From NCBI RefSeq assembly GCF_017695955.1, contig NZ_JAAORO010000001.1:496001-560000 (forward strand): 64,000 bases of DNA, read 5' to 3'. Below the pieces are notes generated by a model. The model had not been told where the DNA came from. It ran no database searches and saw nothing but the letters and a program-made list of their open reading frames with translations. Position numbers and translations under genes: made by a program. Shown piece after piece: positions 26,400-31,402 of the stretch. Positions within the stretch are counted from its first letter, which is position 1; each line of letters opens with the position of its first letter. The stretch comes from Prochlorococcus marinus XMU1419 (lineage in GTDB: Bacteria; Cyanobacteriota; Cyanobacteriia; PCC-6307; Cyanobiaceae).

Positions 26400-27449
26400 T
26401 TGAAGACTTTAACCATAATAAAACCTGATGATTGGCATTTACATTTAAGAGAAGGTCTTGTATTAAAAAATATCATTCACTTTAGTTCCGAATTTTTTGG
26501 AAGAGCTATTATTATGCCAAATACTAAAATTCCCATTACATCTGTTGAAAGTGCGACCTCTTACAAAAAATCTATTGTTGAAGCGTTGCCAGAAAGTTCT
26601 AAGTTTGAACCATTAATGACGATATATCTTACAGATGAGACTGATAAAGCAGAATTAATAAATGGTTTCAAAAATAATATCTTTTTCGCAGCAAAATTGT
26701 ATCCTGCTAATGCTACAACAAATTCCAGTCATGGAGTTAAGAAAATAGAAAATCTATATAAGATTTTCGAATCAATGCAAGATAATGGAATGCCTCTTTT
26801 AATTCACGGGGAAGTGACTGATTCTGAAGTAGACATATTTGATAGAGAGGAAGTTTTTATAGATAAAGAACTCTCTCAAATAACTAAAAGATTTCCAAAA
26901 TTAAAAATCGTTTTAGAACATATAACCACATCTTATGCAGTTGATTTTGTTCAAGAAAATAAAATTGGAGCTACTATCACTCCGCATCATTTGCATATAA
27001 ATAGAAATGCAATGTTTTTTGGAGGCTTAAATAGTGATTTTTACTGCTTACCAGTTGCTAAAAGGGAAAGTAATAGACTCGCTTTAAGGAGAGCTGCAAC
27101 AAGTGGGGAAAAATGTTTTTTCTTGGGAACTGACTCTGCTCCACACCTCAGAAAGTGGAAGGCTTTTTGTGGATGTGCTGGCATTTTTAATTCTCCAGTA
27201 GCAATAGAAAGCTATTTAACAGTATTTGAAGAGGAAGATGCTCTAGATAATTTTGAAAAGTTTGCAAGTTTAAATGGCCCTAATTTTTATAATGTCCCTC
27301 ATAACAAAGAAAAATTAAAATTAGTGTCTAGACCAAACAAAATTTCAGATTTTATTGATGTTGAAGAGGAAAACAACATTGTAGGACAGATAAAACCTTT
27401 ACATGCAGGTGAAACTTTACGATGGCAAGTTGATGGGATAGTAAATTAA
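26400..27449 (+). CDS. pyrC: Dihydroorotase
   Basis: Third step of pyrimidine synthesis: carbamoyl-aspartate to dihydroorotate. At 349 residues it is the class II (E. coli PyrC) type. The metal-binding DWHLHLREG (His13, His15), the LHGE-type IHGEVT, the LEHITT segment and the LGTDSAPH motif are all present. The start is TTG 26400. It is the last ordinary core gene before the tRNA-Leu accessory stretch. Confidence 0.95.
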   Translation: MKTLTIIKPDDWHLHLREGLVLKNIIHFSSEFFGRAIIMPNTKIPITSVESATSYKKSIVEALPESSKFEPLMTIYLTDETDKAELINGFKNNIFFAAKLYPANATTNSSHGVKKIENLYKIFESMQDNGMPLLIHGEVTDSEVDIFDREEVFIDKELSQITKRFPKLKIVLEHITTSYAVDFVQENKIGATITPHHLHINRNAMFFGGLNSDFYCLPVAKRESNRLALRRAATSGEKCFFLGTDSAPHLRKWKAFCGCAGIFNSPVAIESYLTVFEEEDALDNFEKFASLNGPNFYNVPHNKEKLKLVSRPNKISDFIDVEEENNIVGQIKPLHAGETLRWQVDGIVN

Positions 27450-27780
27450 AAAGTTATATTTAATCTAACCATTCAAAAAAAGTGAAAATTCCCAATATCT
27501 ATTAGTTAAATCGGAAACTTAAATATGGGATGAATTAGTGGCGATTTCTTCAGGGAGTCAGGGGGAATTTGTAAACTCGCCAGACTTAAAAATATTTATC
27601 TTCTTGCTAAGGTAATTTCTTAGAGTGTAGGCAAAAGTAAGTAGATTTTTAAATTAAATCTATCTTTATACTTGCATATACCCAACTTATAACTAACATA
27701 TTTCACTAATCAAATGAAAGTTTCTAGTTGGTTGTTGAGACTGTAAAATACTTTCATAATAATTACCCTCATTATAAATC
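27450..27780. other. Intergenic stretch holding a decayed tRNA-Leu half
   Basis: These 331 bases separate pyrC from the membrane protein gene at 27781. The only recognisable content is the 5'-half tRNA-Leu remnant at 27553-27591. The cassette found upstream of the other two copies is absent here, or too decayed for me to see. No other gene or hairpin stands out. Confidence 0.6.
27553..27591 (+). pseudogene. tRNA-Leu(UAA) 5'-half remnant 1 (oldest)
   Basis: These 39 bases align with the first 39 of the intact tRNA-Leu at 31003, from GGGAGT through the D-arm to ACTTAAAA in the anticodon loop, with about seven mismatches. Similarity stops at the anticodon loop, the same point as in remnant 2. 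It cannot form the acceptor or T arms. The higher divergence suggests it is the oldest of the copies. Confidence 0.7.
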
Positions 27781-28452
27781 TTGAAGTTAATTAAAACACC
27801 ATGGGGATCTATTTCTCCAGAAGTAAGTTTGTTCCCCATCTATTACCTAATATTTATTTATGGATTTATTTATATTCTCCCTTACGGGGAAAATATAGTT
27901 GGTTTAACTTGGTTTAACTTATTGAAACTAGAAGATGGTCCTCTGGAATGGATTCAGTTTTTTGAATACTTTTTTTCATCAATATTTGGGTTAGTAATTT
28001 TTTGCAAAAGTAAAAGTAAAAAATCCTTAAACTCATTTATTTGGTTATTTCTTAGTGCATTAACCTTCTTTATTGCTGCTGAAGAAATAAGTTGGGGTGA
28101 GCGAATTACAGGTTTTACAATAGATTCTCTTACAGAAATTAGTATTCAAGGTGAGACTAATCTGCATAATCTCCCATTTTTTCATAATCTATTTCTCGAT
28201 CCTTTATTGATAATCATTTGTATTTTTTTTGGATGGATTGGATGGAGAAAGTGGCCACACTTAAGCTCAATACCAAGTAAAAAATTAAGTTTATATTTCT
28301 TGATAACTGCTTTATATATTTTTTATTATGAAATTTCATGGGCTTCAACTATTGAGCATATAAGAAATGATTTAGAAATTTACGAATTCTTACTCTCTAC
28401 TGGATTCTTTATGCATTTTTTGGATAATCTGAAATTATCTAAATTTAAATAA
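27781..28452 (+). CDS. Unknown polytopic membrane protein (EEISWGERI motif)
   Basis: This 223-residue protein has about six hydrophobic helices and starts at TTG 27781. It carries AAEEISWGERITGF (about residue 99 onward) in a helix, then QGETNLHNL in a loop, then a later YEISWAS repeat of the EISW pattern. The clustered Glu, Trp and His at membrane borders look catalytic or metal-binding. I remember similar motifs in uncharacterised bacterial membrane proteins but cannot name a family. It lies between two tRNA-Leu remnants, so it is probable accessory cargo. Confidence 0.65.
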   Translation: MKLIKTPWGSISPEVSLFPIYYLIFIYGFIYILPYGENIVGLTWFNLLKLEDGPLEWIQFFEYFFSSIFGLVIFCKSKSKKSLNSFIWLFLSALTFFIAAEEISWGERITGFTIDSLTEISIQGETNLHNLPFFHNLFLDPLLIIICIFFGWIGWRKWPHLSSIPSKKLSLYFLITALYIFYYEISWASTIEHIRNDLEIYEFLLSTGFFMHFLDNLKLSKFK

Positions 28453-28694
28453 AATTATTAAATACTATTTATCTCGCGTATCTAATAATTCAAGAAAAGT
28501 GTAAATATTCTTATTTTTCAAGTGTAAGAAAGTGCACAGAAATATCTATTGAATATGCTAATGGTTTTTTAAAATGGTAAAAGAAATCTGGCTTCTTGAT
28601 CAAAATTCACAAAGGTCAAACTTATTTGTCATCCCACTTCAGAAAATTAGTGCATGGGAAACCTGATTTTTATATTTCTTTTAAGAGGTAACGC

Positions 28695-29450
28695 TTAGAA
28701 ACGAAATCTAAGTCCTGTTGTAACTACAAAAGAATTATTTGAGTCAAAGTCTGTGTCAGCACCACCGCCAGCAGCAGCAGCAGCAGCAGCTTCACCACCA
28801 CCACCAAGACCAGCACCTTCACCACCAACAGCATTTGCATTAGCATTACCATTAGCAGCAGCAGTTGAGAATTCTGCGTAATTCAAATAGGAAACCTCTG
28901 CATATAGAGAGGTAGTGTCTGAGACTTCATACTCTACCCCGCCTTTTAATCCAAATGTGAAAAGTTCTTCATCAATTGCTGGAGTAGGTACATTTGCTCC
29001 TCCTACAATGGGGTTTGCTTCAGCCATTTCAACAGTGGAAAATCCCAGGCCGGCTCCAAGATAAGTAGAGAATTTTTTATCAGTTGGGAAATCTTTATAA
29101 CCAAATATCATATAACTTTTAATATCTTCCTCAATTTCTGGGTTAATGTTTGAAGTGACAGGATTTTGTCCCGGAGCTGTTACTGTGATTGAATCACGTG
29201 AAACGGTTGTAGCTGAATAATTAAATTCTAATCTCCAATCATCGAATTCTTTACCAATTGCCAAAGAATATTGAAAAGGACTATCAGTACCGAAGGAAAC
29301 AACACCTGTCCCATCAAGATCACTTTCAAGTTCATTAATGGAGTTTATCCCTCCGCTAATAGAAAGATAAAAACTTTTAGATTCTTCTGCACATATTGGA
29401 GAGGTTAAAGAACCCAATAATAGTGATGATATAACGAAGTATTTTCTCAT
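28695..29450 (-). CDS. Small outer-membrane beta-barrel protein, copy 1, with Ala/Gly-rich insert
   Basis: Exported protein of 251 residues: a signal peptide (about 1-21, ending PICA), then alternating amphipathic strands and a C-terminal Phe (GLRFRF) as expected for an eight-strand OmpA/OMP_b-brl barrel. The segment FTFGLKGGVEYEVSDTTSLY and the Y-rich strands fit. Before the last strand is a low-complexity insert rich in Ala, Gly and Asn (28757-28866), coded partly by a CAG/GCT trinucleotide run. Copy 2 lacks it. Outer-membrane location is inferred; function unknown. Confidence 0.78.
   Translation of the reverse strand: MRKYFVISSLLLGSLTSPICAEESKSFYLSISGGINSINELESDLDGTGVVSFGTDSPFQYSLAIGKEFDDWRLEFNYSATTVSRDSITVTAPGQNPVTSNINPEIEEDIKSYMIFGYKDFPTDKKFSTYLGAGLGFSTVEMAEANPIVGGANVPTPAIDEELFTFGLKGGVEYEVSDTTSLYAEVSYLNYAEFSTAAANGNANANAVGGEGAGLGGGGEAAAAAAAGGGADTDFDSNNSFVVTTGLRFRF
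28757..28866 (-). repeat. Low-complexity Ala/Gly/Asn-coding tract with (CAG)7
   Basis: About 36 codons of Ala, Gly, Asn and Glu in copy 1 of the barrel gene. They include a pure trinucleotide run (CAG)7 at 28769-28790 that encodes poly-alanine on the minus strand. The tract is much richer in G+C than its surroundings. Length changes of whole units would stay in frame. Confidence 0.8.
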
Positions 29451-29552
29451 AATTTTGATACTAAATTTCTAGGAAATTATCATTTTAAAACATTGTAGTC
29501 TAGAAATATTTTGGAAAAAATATATTAAAAAACAAACTGAATATTATCAATA

Positions 29553-29663
29553 TCAAGGACGTAGCTGACTAAATGGGACGCTCGTCAACACTCGTAACTT
29601 AACGCCATTTAAAAGCAGCAGATAAGGACCTGCTGAATGTGTAAACTCTATAGGCTTCGCCAT
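29553..29663 (-). CDS. Possible 36-residue microprotein, cassette copy A (or structured RNA)
   Basis: ATG at 29663, stop at 29555-29553. The product would start MAKPIEFTHSAGPY and end SVPFSQLRP. The same frame and length recur in copy B with one amino-acid change (Pro4 to Ser) and one silent change. No ribosome binding site is visible, and the ATG lies in the loop of a hairpin. The frame may be a by-product of a conserved structured RNA. No homologue recognised. Confidence 0.35.
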   Translation of the reverse strand: MAKPIEFTHSAGPYLLLLNGVKLRVLTSVPFSQLRP

Positions 29664-29737
29664 AGTGTAATCTAACGAGTCTATAGATCTCAAAATCATC
29701 ACTTTTTACATCAATTTCTTTGCAAGTTTGCAATAAA

Positions 29738-29753
29738 AAGGCTGAGAAGCCTT
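29738..29753 (+). other. GAGA-tetraloop hairpin at tRNA remnant 5' boundary
   Basis: AAGGCT-GAGA-AGCCTT, a perfect six-base stem with a GNRA-type loop, ends exactly one base before the tRNA-like sequence. An identical hairpin occupies the same place at 30987-31002 before the intact tRNA. Confidence 0.55.
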
Positions 29754-29796
29754 GGGAGTGCGGCGGAATTGGTAGACCCGCCTGACTTAAAATCCC
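29754..29796 (+). pseudogene. tRNA-Leu(UAA) 5'-half remnant 2
   Basis: These 43 bases match the intact tRNA-Leu at 31003 from GGGAGTG to TTAAAATCC with three mismatches, then diverge just after the anticodon loop. The variable arm, T arm and 3' acceptor strand are missing. The 5' flank is the conserved cassette, so the promoter context may be intact and the remnant transcribed. Confidence 0.8.
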
Positions 29797-29821
29797 ACAG
29801 ACTTTGGTGTAGATAGTGAAC

Positions 29822-29848
29822 GCGATTAGCCAAAAAGCTAATCGCTTT
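29822..29848 (+). terminator. Intrinsic terminator after tRNA-Leu remnant 2
   Basis: GCGATTAGC (29822-29830), loop CAAAAA, perfect complement GCTAATCGC (29837-29845), then TTTATTATT. It is one of the clearest terminator-like hairpins in the window. It ends 50 bases after the tRNA half-copy and would stop a transcript entering from the cassette. Confidence 0.6.
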
Positions 29849-30033
29849 ATTATTGTTCAAGTGCACGAAAGCGCAGAAAATAGAAACTTAACATGCTCGA
29901 AGTTCTTTTAATGTCAAAAGAAATGACGCTTTATTGATTAAAAATCACAAAAGTCAAAATTATTATTCGTTCCACTGCAAAAATCAGTACATGATAATCC
30001 TGATTTATTATTTTCCTTTCAACAAGGGAATTC

Positions 30034-30684
30034 TTAGAAACTAAATCTAAGGCCTGCTGTAACTACAAACGAATTAATAGAATCAAATTCTTCACCTTCT
30101 TCAGCATCGAATGATGCCAAATTTAAGTATCCAAGCTCAGTATATAAAGAAGTATTTTCTGCTATTTCATAATCTACTCCTCCTTTTAATCCAAATGTGA
30201 ATACTTGTGTATCAAAATCACTAGTTACAAAATTAACCCCTGCAAGAGCTATATTTTGTGAAGGGACATCAATAGAAGAAAAACCTAAACCTGCTCCAAT
30301 ATATGGTGTGAATTTTGTATCACTAGGGAAATCTTTATAAGCATAGATCATGTAACTCGTAACATCTGCTTCATAATCTGGAGTAAGAGCTGCAGTAGCA
30401 CCAACACCTCCAGCTGTTACCGTCAATTCATCACTTGAAATAGTAGTACCTGAATAATTAAATTCTAATTTCCAATCTTCAAATTCTTTACCGATTGCAA
30501 ATGAATATTGGAAGGGATTGTTAGTGCCATATTCACCATTTATAACTCCAACACTACTCTCAATATCACCCACAAAATTTATCCCTCCTCCAATAGAAAA
30601 ATAAAAACTTTTAGATTCCTCTGCAAATATTGGAGAGGTAAAAGAACTCAATAATAGTGAAGATGCAACCAAGTATTTTTTCAT
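30034..30684 (-). CDS. Small outer-membrane beta-barrel protein, copy 2
   Basis: 216 residues from ATG 30684; the frame is open eleven codons further, but MKKYLVASSL gives a proper signal peptide (about 1-21) matching copy 1. The mature part alternates strand-like segments (FYFSIGGGINF, WKLEFNYSG, FTFGLKGGVDYEI) and ends in GLRFSF with a terminal Phe, as expected for Bam-assembled barrels. Clearly paralogous to the gene at 28695 but substantially diverged, and without the Ala/Gly insert. Likely expressed from a promoter within the cassette flank. Function unknown. Confidence 0.78.
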   Translation of the reverse strand: MKKYLVASSLLLSSFTSPIFAEESKSFYFSIGGGINFVGDIESSVGVINGEYGTNNPFQYSFAIGKEFEDWKLEFNYSGTTISSDELTVTAGGVGATAALTPDYEADVTSYMIYAYKDFPSDTKFTPYIGAGLGFSSIDVPSQNIALAGVNFVTSDFDTQVFTFGLKGGVDYEIAENTSLYTELGYLNLASFDAEEGEEFDSINSFVVTAGLRFSF

Positions 30685-30789
30685 AGTTTTTAAAATAGGT
30701 TTATAAGAAATTATCATTTTAAAAATTTGTAGTCTACAAATATTTTGGAAATAATATATTCAAAAAAAACAAACTGAAAATTATCAATA

Positions 30790-30900
30790 TCAAGGACGTA
30801 GCTGACTAAATGGGACACTCGTCAACACTCGTAACTTAACGCCATTTAAAAGCAGCAGATAAGGACCTGCTGAATGTGTAAACTCTATAGACTTCGCCAT
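30790..30900 (-). CDS. Possible 36-residue microprotein, cassette copy B (or structured RNA)
   Basis: ATG at 30900, stop at 30792-30790; it begins MAKSIEFTHSAGPY and ends SVPFSQLRP. Frame and length are identical to copy A. A hydrophobic LLLLNGV patch lies in the middle. No Shine-Dalgarno sequence is present. Coding and RNA explanations cannot be separated from two near-identical copies. Confidence 0.35.
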   Translation of the reverse strand: MAKSIEFTHSAGPYLLLLNGVKLRVLTSVPFSQLRP

Positions 30901-30986
30901 AGCGTAATCTAAGGAGTCTATAGATCTCAAAATCATCACTTTTTACATCAATTTCTTTGCAAGTTTACAATAAAAGTTACAATAAA

Positions 30987-31002
30987 AAGGCTGAGAAGCC
31001 TT
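30987..31002 (+). other. GAGA-tetraloop hairpin in tRNA-Leu 5' leader
   Basis: AAGGCT-GAGA-AGCCTT directly abuts base 1 of the mature tRNA. It may position RNase P or act as a leader structure, and it is identical to the hairpin before remnant 2. Confidence 0.5.
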
Positions 31003-31088
31003 GGGAGTGTGGCGGAATTGGTAGACGCGCCGGACTTAAAATCCGTCGAGCGCTTTAGCTCGTGGGGGTTCAAGTCCCCCCACTCCCA
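31003..31088 (+). tRNA. tRNA-Leu (anticodon UAA)
   Basis: 86 bases with acceptor stem GGGAGTG/CACTCCC and discriminator A at 31088. The long class II variable arm (GAGCGCTTTAGCTC) and the T-arm GGGGGTTCAAGTCCCCC are present. The anticodon loop is CTTAAAA, giving UAA (31037-31039). No group I intron interrupts the anticodon loop, unlike tRNA-Leu(UAA) of many other cyanobacteria. CCA is not encoded. It is the 3' end of the accessory stretch; ndhL follows. Confidence 0.95.
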
Positions 31089-31168
31089 CTATATAAATTA
31101 TTTATTTTTAGTTCTTACGATAACTGCCAATAATTGTTATGTTTTAACTAAGGAACCATAAAATTAAA

Positions 31169-31402
31169 ATGGAAAATATTTTCACTAATCCATTTGCCAC
31201 TCTAATTGCTTATGTTGCTGTTATCACTGCATATTTATTAGTTATTCCATTATTTCTATTTTACTGGATGAATAATAGATGGAATGTTATGGGCAAATTT
31301 GAGAGATTAGGAATTTATGGACTTGTTTTCCTTTTTTTCCCAGGTTTAATTTTATTTTCTCCATTTCTAAATCTTAGATTAAAAGGAAGTAGTAAAGGTT
31401 AA
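31169..31402 (+). CDS. ndhL: NAD(P)H-quinone oxidoreductase subunit L
   Basis: Small membrane subunit specific to the cyanobacterial NDH-1 complex, 77 residues. It has two hydrophobic helices (about 12-32 and 47-65) separated by [15 protein letters not shown], the typical NdhL loop, and a basic C-terminus. It takes part in cyclic electron flow and respiration in thylakoids. A DUF3007 gene follows after four bases and then trpA, the usual picocyanobacterial order. Confidence 0.9.

Follow-up and report, generated by a model that had tools for sequence, protein, structure and literature searches.

We analyzed a 64,000-nucleotide stretch of the Prochlorococcus marinus XMU1419 genome (RefSeq assembly GCF_017695955.1, contig NZ_JAAORO010000001.1, positions 496,001 to 560,000 of the forward strand; hereafter the window), in which a cassette of about 215 bp occurs twice near a tRNA-Leu gene, as copy A (29544–29753) and copy B (30781–31002). 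The analysis indicates, with a probability of about 0.9, that the cassette is the right end of insertions derived from T7-like cyanophages, which have stacked at tRNA-Leu(UAA) and carry a dead integrase end. A preliminary description of the region had correctly recognized both copies as real and nearly identical, with a tRNA-Leu remnant beside A and the intact gene beside B; a third, older remnant is also present (27553–27591). Its count of five substitutions and one 12-base difference between the copies also stands, while the 12 bases that it called an insertion are better read as a deletion in A, because 7 of the 12 phages described below, those with the nearest spacer, have both repeats; the remaining 5 differ at the position of the repeat. 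Part by part, A and B are identical at 119 of 122 bases in the integrase-end remnant, at 81 of 83 in the spacer (besides the 12-base length difference) and at 39 of 42 in the tRNA 5′ half. The flanks are, as had been noted, much more diverged than the cassette, with identity over 76% of aligned bases for the coding sequences of the two adjacent beta-barrel genes, 75% for the left flank and 84% for the non-coding stretch upstream of the barrel genes.

An exact scan with an 18-base piece of the cassette matched 18 viral contigs in IMG/VR, 8 of which contain an integrase end, a spacer and a tRNA-Leu half in a row. In the phages the ~215 bp begin with the final ~120 bp of a tyrosine integrase gene whose frame is open, followed by a spacer of ~95 bp and then by the first half of tRNA-Leu(UAA). 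A search with the integrase gave 12 phage loci from 13 candidate stretches, and a second pattern (87 contigs) gave three more; the phage attachment site (attP) is readable in 14 of these loci, 12 of them distinct, and in all 12 distinct stretches the tRNA half-gene follows the integrase end. Left out of the 12-phage alignment were L205 and L253, duplicates of L204 and L212, and L202, whose stretch does not include attP. Three full-length phage integrases belong to Pfam PF00589 (E 1e-22 to 3e-21). For phage contig L029, PHROGs likewise assigns the gene to the integrases and identifies an RNA polymerase and a phage transcription regulator next to it; the T7-type RNA polymerase gene lies beyond the tRNA half of this contig, and further open reading frames (ORFs) near the phage integrase resemble, as judged by eye, T7-type replication genes.

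Both copies align with these phages. Positions 30786–31046, in and beyond copy B, are 92.4% identical over 262 bp to phage L025, and positions 29549–29882, in and beyond copy A, are 85% identical over 348 bp to L029, in one piece that runs straight through the attachment (att) site. Seven records of the cyanophages P-SSP7, P-SSP2 and P-SSP3 match the intact tRNA at every one of its initial 39 bases (39/39). The P-SSP7 integrase has no match in the window by tblastn, and the nearest source is therefore the IMG/VR group. When the GenBank phage collection was searched for records in which the cassette precedes the tRNA, only three weak matches were returned (E 0.03, Listeria and Spiroplasma phages), which we take as chance; six other weak matches (L013–L015 and L017–L019) were dropped, as they were judged by eye to be chance matches in other sequence. 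As read from these alignments, the insertion ends at tRNA-Leu(UAA) derive from a T7-like cyanophage. Such phages are described by Shitrit et al. 2021 (PMC8776855) as using the tRNA-Leu half-gene as their general attachment site, with integration demonstrated by PCR; the same text describes the integration as transient, without stable lysogens and with intact prophages absent, and states that the gain to the phages from integrating remained uncertain. Another report (PMC3861242) describes an integrase together with a fragment of tRNA-Leu on each of two cyanophage contigs.

Among the phages, the 40 codons of the integrase end are variable at 26 third, 9 first and 5 second positions. In the window this end is dead. 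The 120-base coding end of copy B carries 11 changes that are absent from all of the phages, and all 11 are common to A. Among the shared changes are two in-frame stops, a one-base loss that shifts the frame to NSIDFAIA, and a Tyr to His replacement in the RYLHA motif, whose Tyr is presumably the catalytic Tyr of the integrase. Three further private changes are found in the integrase end of A and none in that of B. Across the genus, the integrase protein is present in 4 of 266 genomes, at five places, each time as a C-terminal piece with one or two stops, and the inserts are therefore remnants rather than prophages. Fragments of the RNA polymerase reach residues 21–70 (10 loci) and those of the integrase begin at residues 225–260 (5 loci), ends that neither fix nor exclude a shared break point.

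The arrangement suggests how the locus may have formed. A phage attP made up of the integrase gene end, a host-type promoter spacer, the first 39–42 bases of tRNA-Leu and the leader of the RNA polymerase gene would recombine within the tRNA half, leaving the old half-gene of the host and its promoter stranded upstream. The new intact tRNA would then join a phage 5′ half to a host 3′ half and, to judge from the layout, would be read from the predicted promoter of the phage. The two elements that we call E1 and E2 each have a single small gene between two phage ends and lack the phage interior. In the window genome the process appears to have been repeated, so that three elements (E0, E1 and E2) are stacked, with A at the E1/E2 junction and B at the live right end. 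From left to right the stack reads left neighbour gene, decayed ancestral promoter, oldest tRNA half, E0, E1 with barrel gene 1, E2 with barrel gene 2, intact tRNA and ndhL (Table 1). In other genomes, locus L303 is another stack of two and L301 a single insert.

Table 1 Features of the tRNA-Leu(UAA) locus in the window.
Feature	Position	Strand	Evidence
pyrC-type amidohydrolase gene, left neighbour of the tRNA-Leu site	26400..27449	+	Pfam Amidohydro_1
Decayed ancestral tRNA-Leu spacer and promoter	27450..27552	+	shares 68 identical bases with the spacer at the empty site of relative L373 (score 61; shuffled mean -11.8, standard deviation (sd) 9.1)
Oldest tRNA-Leu 5′-half remnant	27553..27591	+	82% to phage/intact half; distance from left neighbour gene as in an empty site (gap 100-111 bp in 94/105 empty loci)
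Element E0, runs into next element	27592..28511	+	223-residue ORF and start of host-like tRNA promoter (28496-28519)
Left phage end of E1 (leader of phage RNA polymerase gene)	28508..28561	+	88.9% over 54 bp to phage contig L029
E1 cargo, outer-membrane beta-barrel gene 1	28695..29450	-	Pfam OMP_b-brl 2.2e-9
First part of copy A, dead 3′ terminus of the phage integrase gene (tyrosine type)	29546..29670	+	72% by tblastn to residues 251-279 of int_L029 (E 9.5e-7), with two in-frame stops
Second part of copy A, attP spacer in which the promoter has decayed (TGCAAT) and 12 bases are missing	29671..29753	+	
tRNA-Leu 5′-half remnant, displaced att site at E1/E2 junction	29754..29795	+	L029 aligns across
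Left phage end of E2, with start of phage RNA polymerase gene	29796..29900	+	
E2 cargo, outer-membrane beta-barrel gene 2	30034..30717	-	Pfam OMP_b-brl 4.3e-16
First part of copy B, dead 3′ terminus of the phage integrase gene (tyrosine type)	30783..30907	+	tblastn to four phage integrases (72-76%, E 1.7e-8 to 1.3e-7)
Hairpin 3, palindrome TCTATAGA twice, around integrase stop	30884..30924	+	stem base kept in phages
Copy B part 2, attP spacer now preceding tRNA-Leu	30908..31002	+	88-91/95 bases identical to 7 nearest-group phages
Intact tRNA-Leu(UAA); first 39-42 bases are the att site	31003..31089	+	
ndhL, right neighbour of the site	31169..31402	+	Pfam NdhL 3.1e-27

An insert that supplies the 5′ half of the tRNA would have to supply its promoter as well. 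In 15 of 15 phage attP sites (the 12 phages together with P-SSP7, P-SSP3 and P-SSP2), a hexamer with 5 or 6 of 6 matches to TATAAT ends 19 or 20 nucleotides before the tRNA. Copy B has kept this hexamer as TACAAT, ending 19 nucleotides before the tRNA, and also contains TTTACA-18-TACAAT at 30942–30971. In copy A the hexamer has become TGCAAT, and the 12 missing bases include the other TACAAT of B, a second hexamer that we count as lost from A on account of the seven phages that have both. The pattern is consistent with a predicted promoter supplied by the insert and with decay of the displaced one. A different arrangement is seen at L310, L311 and other loci with host-like right ends. Their inserts combine a left end of P-SSP7 type with a host-like tRNA promoter on either side, as though the promoter of the host had been captured, whether by the phage or in some later recombination.

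To the extent that the site can be followed through the genus, the tRNA half (with at most 2 mismatches) is found in 205 of 266 genomes, with a reversed-pattern control giving zero in the rows shown, and we counted 27 listed genomes with more than one copy of it. The pyrC-type gene, which we take to be pyrC, precedes the tRNA in 142 of 144 stretches; the two exceptions are shorter pieces of duplicate genomes. Our census covers 142 loci from 141 genomes, the window included, in which the intact tRNA and the left neighbour gene are both in view. The sample is not random, as 15 loci were chosen for a cassette match and two for two listed half-genes; L041 and L045 (duplicate genomes) and L060 and L315 (without an intact tRNA) were left out, and G044, which has a cassette match, lies outside it. 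Genome G218 contributes two empty loci, L345 and L346, which lie in opposite orientation on one contig (contig 22) and are perhaps the product of amplification or an assembly artefact.

The site is empty in 105 of the 142 loci and occupied in 37; among loci taken from the tRNA listing alone, with those already sampled excluded, 20 of 125 are occupied. At all 105 empty loci the ancestral promoter adjoins the tRNA, and no att remnant or phage end was found in any of them. Occupied gaps measure 352–3556 bp. A displaced half-gene is present in 28 of the 37 occupied loci, a left phage end in 31, a phage-type right end in 16 and either end in 34, and no whole prophage was found among the 37. On a tree of the pyrC-type gene (140 rows, 35 of them occupied, with L046 and L348 excluded for their short sequence), occupancy requires at least 31 changes and the presence of PspC cargo 13 (13 rows). 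This suggests repeated gain of inserts, a reading tempered by weak branch support (17 of 136 inner branches are well supported) and by possible recombination of the pyrC-type gene with the site.

By a mechanical count, 33 of the 37 occupied loci contain an open frame of at least 60 residues, with none in L296, L299, L337 and L372. Beta-barrel cargo occurs twice in the window and also at L301 and L295, with a distant relative at L358. TPR cargo is found at tRNA-Leu in L297, L303 (twice), L308 and L309; of the 7 places listed for the TPR gene, 5 are at tRNA-Leu and one is beside an integrase remnant. Further cargo, by Pfam and with one example each, includes PspC, DUF3721, MORN, a YadA anchor, DUF805, TM2, DUF4234 and a 2OG-Fe(II) oxygenase. 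PspC is present in 17 of 265 genomes, and 13 of its 17 places are beside tRNA-Leu by coordinates, with stops in three of the 17. Eight within-family cargo pairs, seven of them between genomes, have no internal stop, and the ratio of nonsynonymous to synonymous divergence (dN/dS) is 0.04–0.49, with synonymous divergence saturated in one pair. No viral relative was found for the barrel gene or the TPR gene in IMG/VR and the GenBank phages, or for PspC in IMG/VR, where single-protein searches reach close relatives only. At L402, a 2OG-Fe(II) oxygenase-like gene lies in the same insert as a decayed PspC gene, so a single insert may hold layers of cargo.

We tentatively consider that the inserts could be minimal mobile gene cassettes, each with one selected gene between T7-like cyanophage ends and without an integrase. 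An infecting phage would provide the integrase that moves them in trans; they would accumulate one behind another at tRNA-Leu, and with each of them a new tRNA promoter would arrive. If so, lytic, transiently integrating cyanophages would be the carriers of a gene-cassette system in Prochlorococcus. Deletion of a prophage followed by later gene gain is the plain alternative to such mobility.

The likeness of A and B has a history separate from that of the barrel genes. Barrel 1 differs from the L301 barrel by a synonymous divergence of 0.14 and from barrel 2 by 0.64 (dN 0.26 for the latter pair), and the stretch upstream of the barrel gene has 6 mismatches to L301 in E1 and 12 in E2. Cassette A, on the other hand, is identical to B at 197/202 positions and to the L301 cassette at 163/202, and the L301 cassette has 1 of the 12 changes that are common to A and B against all phages. 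The decay of the integrase end would thus be older than the split of A and B, and the discordant relatives of barrel and cassette point to different histories for the two. We infer that the likeness of the first part of the cassette reflects recent recombination or gene conversion, which homogenised A and B after an older divergence of the barrels, and not constraint. Of the two causes that the preliminary description had offered for this likeness, selection or gene conversion acting on the cassette, the second is thus favored by the discordant relatives, and selection is plausible for the spacer with its promoter. Most of the newer changes are carried by A; either copy may have been the donor, and it may be the L301 locus that was altered instead of the window.

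Simple tandem duplication of a single chromosomal insert, after which the cassette diverged slowly, would account for the alignment of E1 and E2 from the left phage end through the tRNA half and for the presence in A of all 11 private integrase-end changes of B, including both stops and the frameshift. We nevertheless consider it unlikely. A dead gene end at 97.5% identity beside non-coding flanks at 75–84% needs a second process, barrel 1 is nearer to the L301 barrel than to barrel 2, and L301 already has a barrel-1-type insert alone at the site. An insertion would still be needed for the phage ends and for the same layout with other cargo in other genomes. Duplication followed by conversion is possible.

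It is more doubtful still that the inserts are tycheposons, the tRNA-linked integrative elements of Prochlorococcus (Hackl et al. 2023), or decayed forms of them. In the secondary accounts available (PMC10872708, PMC10187409), tycheposons resemble the inserts in belonging to the same genus, in their tRNA linkage and in having a tyrosine recombinase and cargo genes. The integrase here, however, belongs to a phage and sits beside a T7-type RNA polymerase gene, and the 4–200 kb given for tycheposons in one of these accounts (PMC10872708) compares with 0.35–3.6 kb for the inserts. Size range and integrase source, as described in these accounts, set the two apart.

Integron gene cassettes are likewise stacked single-gene units with conserved ends at one site, whereas the ends of the inserts consist of attP arms from a phage and one half of a tRNA gene. 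In tRNA-gene genomic islands, 3′ halves are the usual case, whereas here the insert supplies the 5′ half and the promoter. In the Islander account of such islands, a displaced tRNA fragment and a regenerated gene mark both ends, as they do here. The closest likeness is to the attP of the T7-like cyanophages P-SSP7, P-SSP2, P-SSP3 and S-TIP37, in which, according to PMC8776855, the same att core (the first tRNA-Leu half) lies downstream of the integrase gene, and in P-SSP7 and P-SSP2 the att half lies upstream of the RNA polymerase gene, as in the ends of the inserts. Unlike these phage sites, the chromosomal copies have a dead integrase fragment, and the phage interior is absent with another gene in its place.

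Phage integration at tRNA-Leu is already known, and what is new here is that phages thought to integrate only transiently appear to leave heritable footprints, in a minority of the loci sampled from the genus (37/142, in the non-random sample described above). The literature accessible to us, the original tycheposon paper not included, makes no mention of heritable single-gene inserts or of promoter replacement at tRNA-Leu. An insertion can apparently replace the promoter of a tRNA gene, as judged from the predicted promoter, and the footprints carry small open genes, several of which belong to surface-protein families; those pairs that were compared bear the marks of purifying selection. The part that abortive integration plays in evolution thereby becomes testable by sequence and by infection experiments.

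Several observations weigh against an origin of the cassette in stacked phage insertions. No intact integrase of this kind was found among the 266 genus genomes, and complete integration is therefore read from the ends only. At 3 of the 37 occupied loci (L057, L358 and L372) our searches found no phage end. Relatives of the barrel gene occur in 13 of 200 genomes, and tRNA-Leu adjoins 1 of the 12 loci checked. In the empty and the host-like groups the offset of the −10-like hexamer does not score highest, which leaves the host promoter less distinct under a simple score, and consensus promoter matches in the region number 21, compared with 16.3 (sd 3.9) in shuffles. The promoter at the tRNA is phage-type in 16 occupied loci and host-like in 21, and re-promotion by the phage is therefore not the sole outcome. 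The remaining points concern the predicted fold of the cassette, which we scored on an alignment of A, B and the 12 phages (14 rows) with a structure drawn from B itself. Over the whole structure 81.0% of cells pair, a value reached by 0 of 500 shuffles and compared with 29–40% in slid versions of the structure; none of the 500 shuffles attains its covariation score either, whereas 3 of 500 attain its number of doubly changed pairs (three), of which the slid versions have 0–3. One part of this fold, hairpin 3, may have a function of its own.

The preliminary description had taken the cassette as structured, implicitly as RNA, with three consecutive hairpins. The three hairpins can indeed form, one substitution in stem 3 turns a pair into G-U, and an Rfam scan of the window at the gathering score recovered only tRNA, in keeping with the statement that no known RNA could be recognized. 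The fold of copy B has a z score of −2.65 against 200 shuffles, 1 of which is as good, on the plus strand, and of −2.26, with 3 of 200 as good, on the minus strand. The check for covariation in homologous cassettes that had been proposed gave a divided answer, in which hairpins 1 and 2 are poorly kept and the lower part of hairpin 3 is kept. In hairpin 1 pairing reaches 75, 62 and 90% in the three helices, and one pair is missing from 12 of the 14 rows; hairpin 2 is 83% paired. In hairpin 3 the lower half (helix 5) has 97.6% of cells paired and the upper half (helix 6) 72.6%; in this upper half both partners have changed in 3 pairs, and two pairs are missing, one from 8 and one from 11 of the 14 rows. 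The doubly changed pairs all sit in hairpin 3, which is therefore the only one that deserves attention, and the covariation term from RNAalifold is about zero (0.09). Related rows can exceed shuffles without any structure, and hairpin 3 together with the relatedness of the rows can explain the pair counts. Hairpins 1 and 2 are integrase codons. A stem covariation first seen in L016 was rejected, as it is due to an extra stretch of integrase codons from another phage group. The paired palindrome TCTATAGA at the integrase stop is kept in the main phage group and has changed pairs in other groups. Hairpin 3 could mark where the integrase message ends or could be bound by a recombinase as an arm site. 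Even with folding better than shuffles on both strands, pairing and covariation beyond them and the kept base of hairpin 3, a non-coding RNA or riboregulator selected for its three hairpins is highly improbable, as the initial ~120 bp belong to an integrase gene that varies among phages in the manner of codons, pairing in hairpins 1 and 2 is often disrupted, doubly changed pairs are confined to hairpin 3 and number 0–3 in slid versions too, and tRNA is the only Rfam family found at the gathering score.

The remaining features of the stack are of a more local kind. The barrel 1 protein has an 87% identical counterpart between the same phage ends in L301 and shares 51% identity with barrel 2. 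Near its C-terminus, barrel gene 1 encodes a long Ala/Gly-rich stretch (28758–28864), which is missing from barrel 2 and has a similar counterpart in the L301 relative. A terminator-like hairpin (29822–29845) lies inside the left phage end of E2. In E0 no second tRNA half was found. Its ORF (27781–28452) is open and encodes a membrane-type protein of 223 residues without a Pfam match, which is 88% identical to that of an ORF at the same tRNA-Leu site in L057, with a dN/dS of 0.11.

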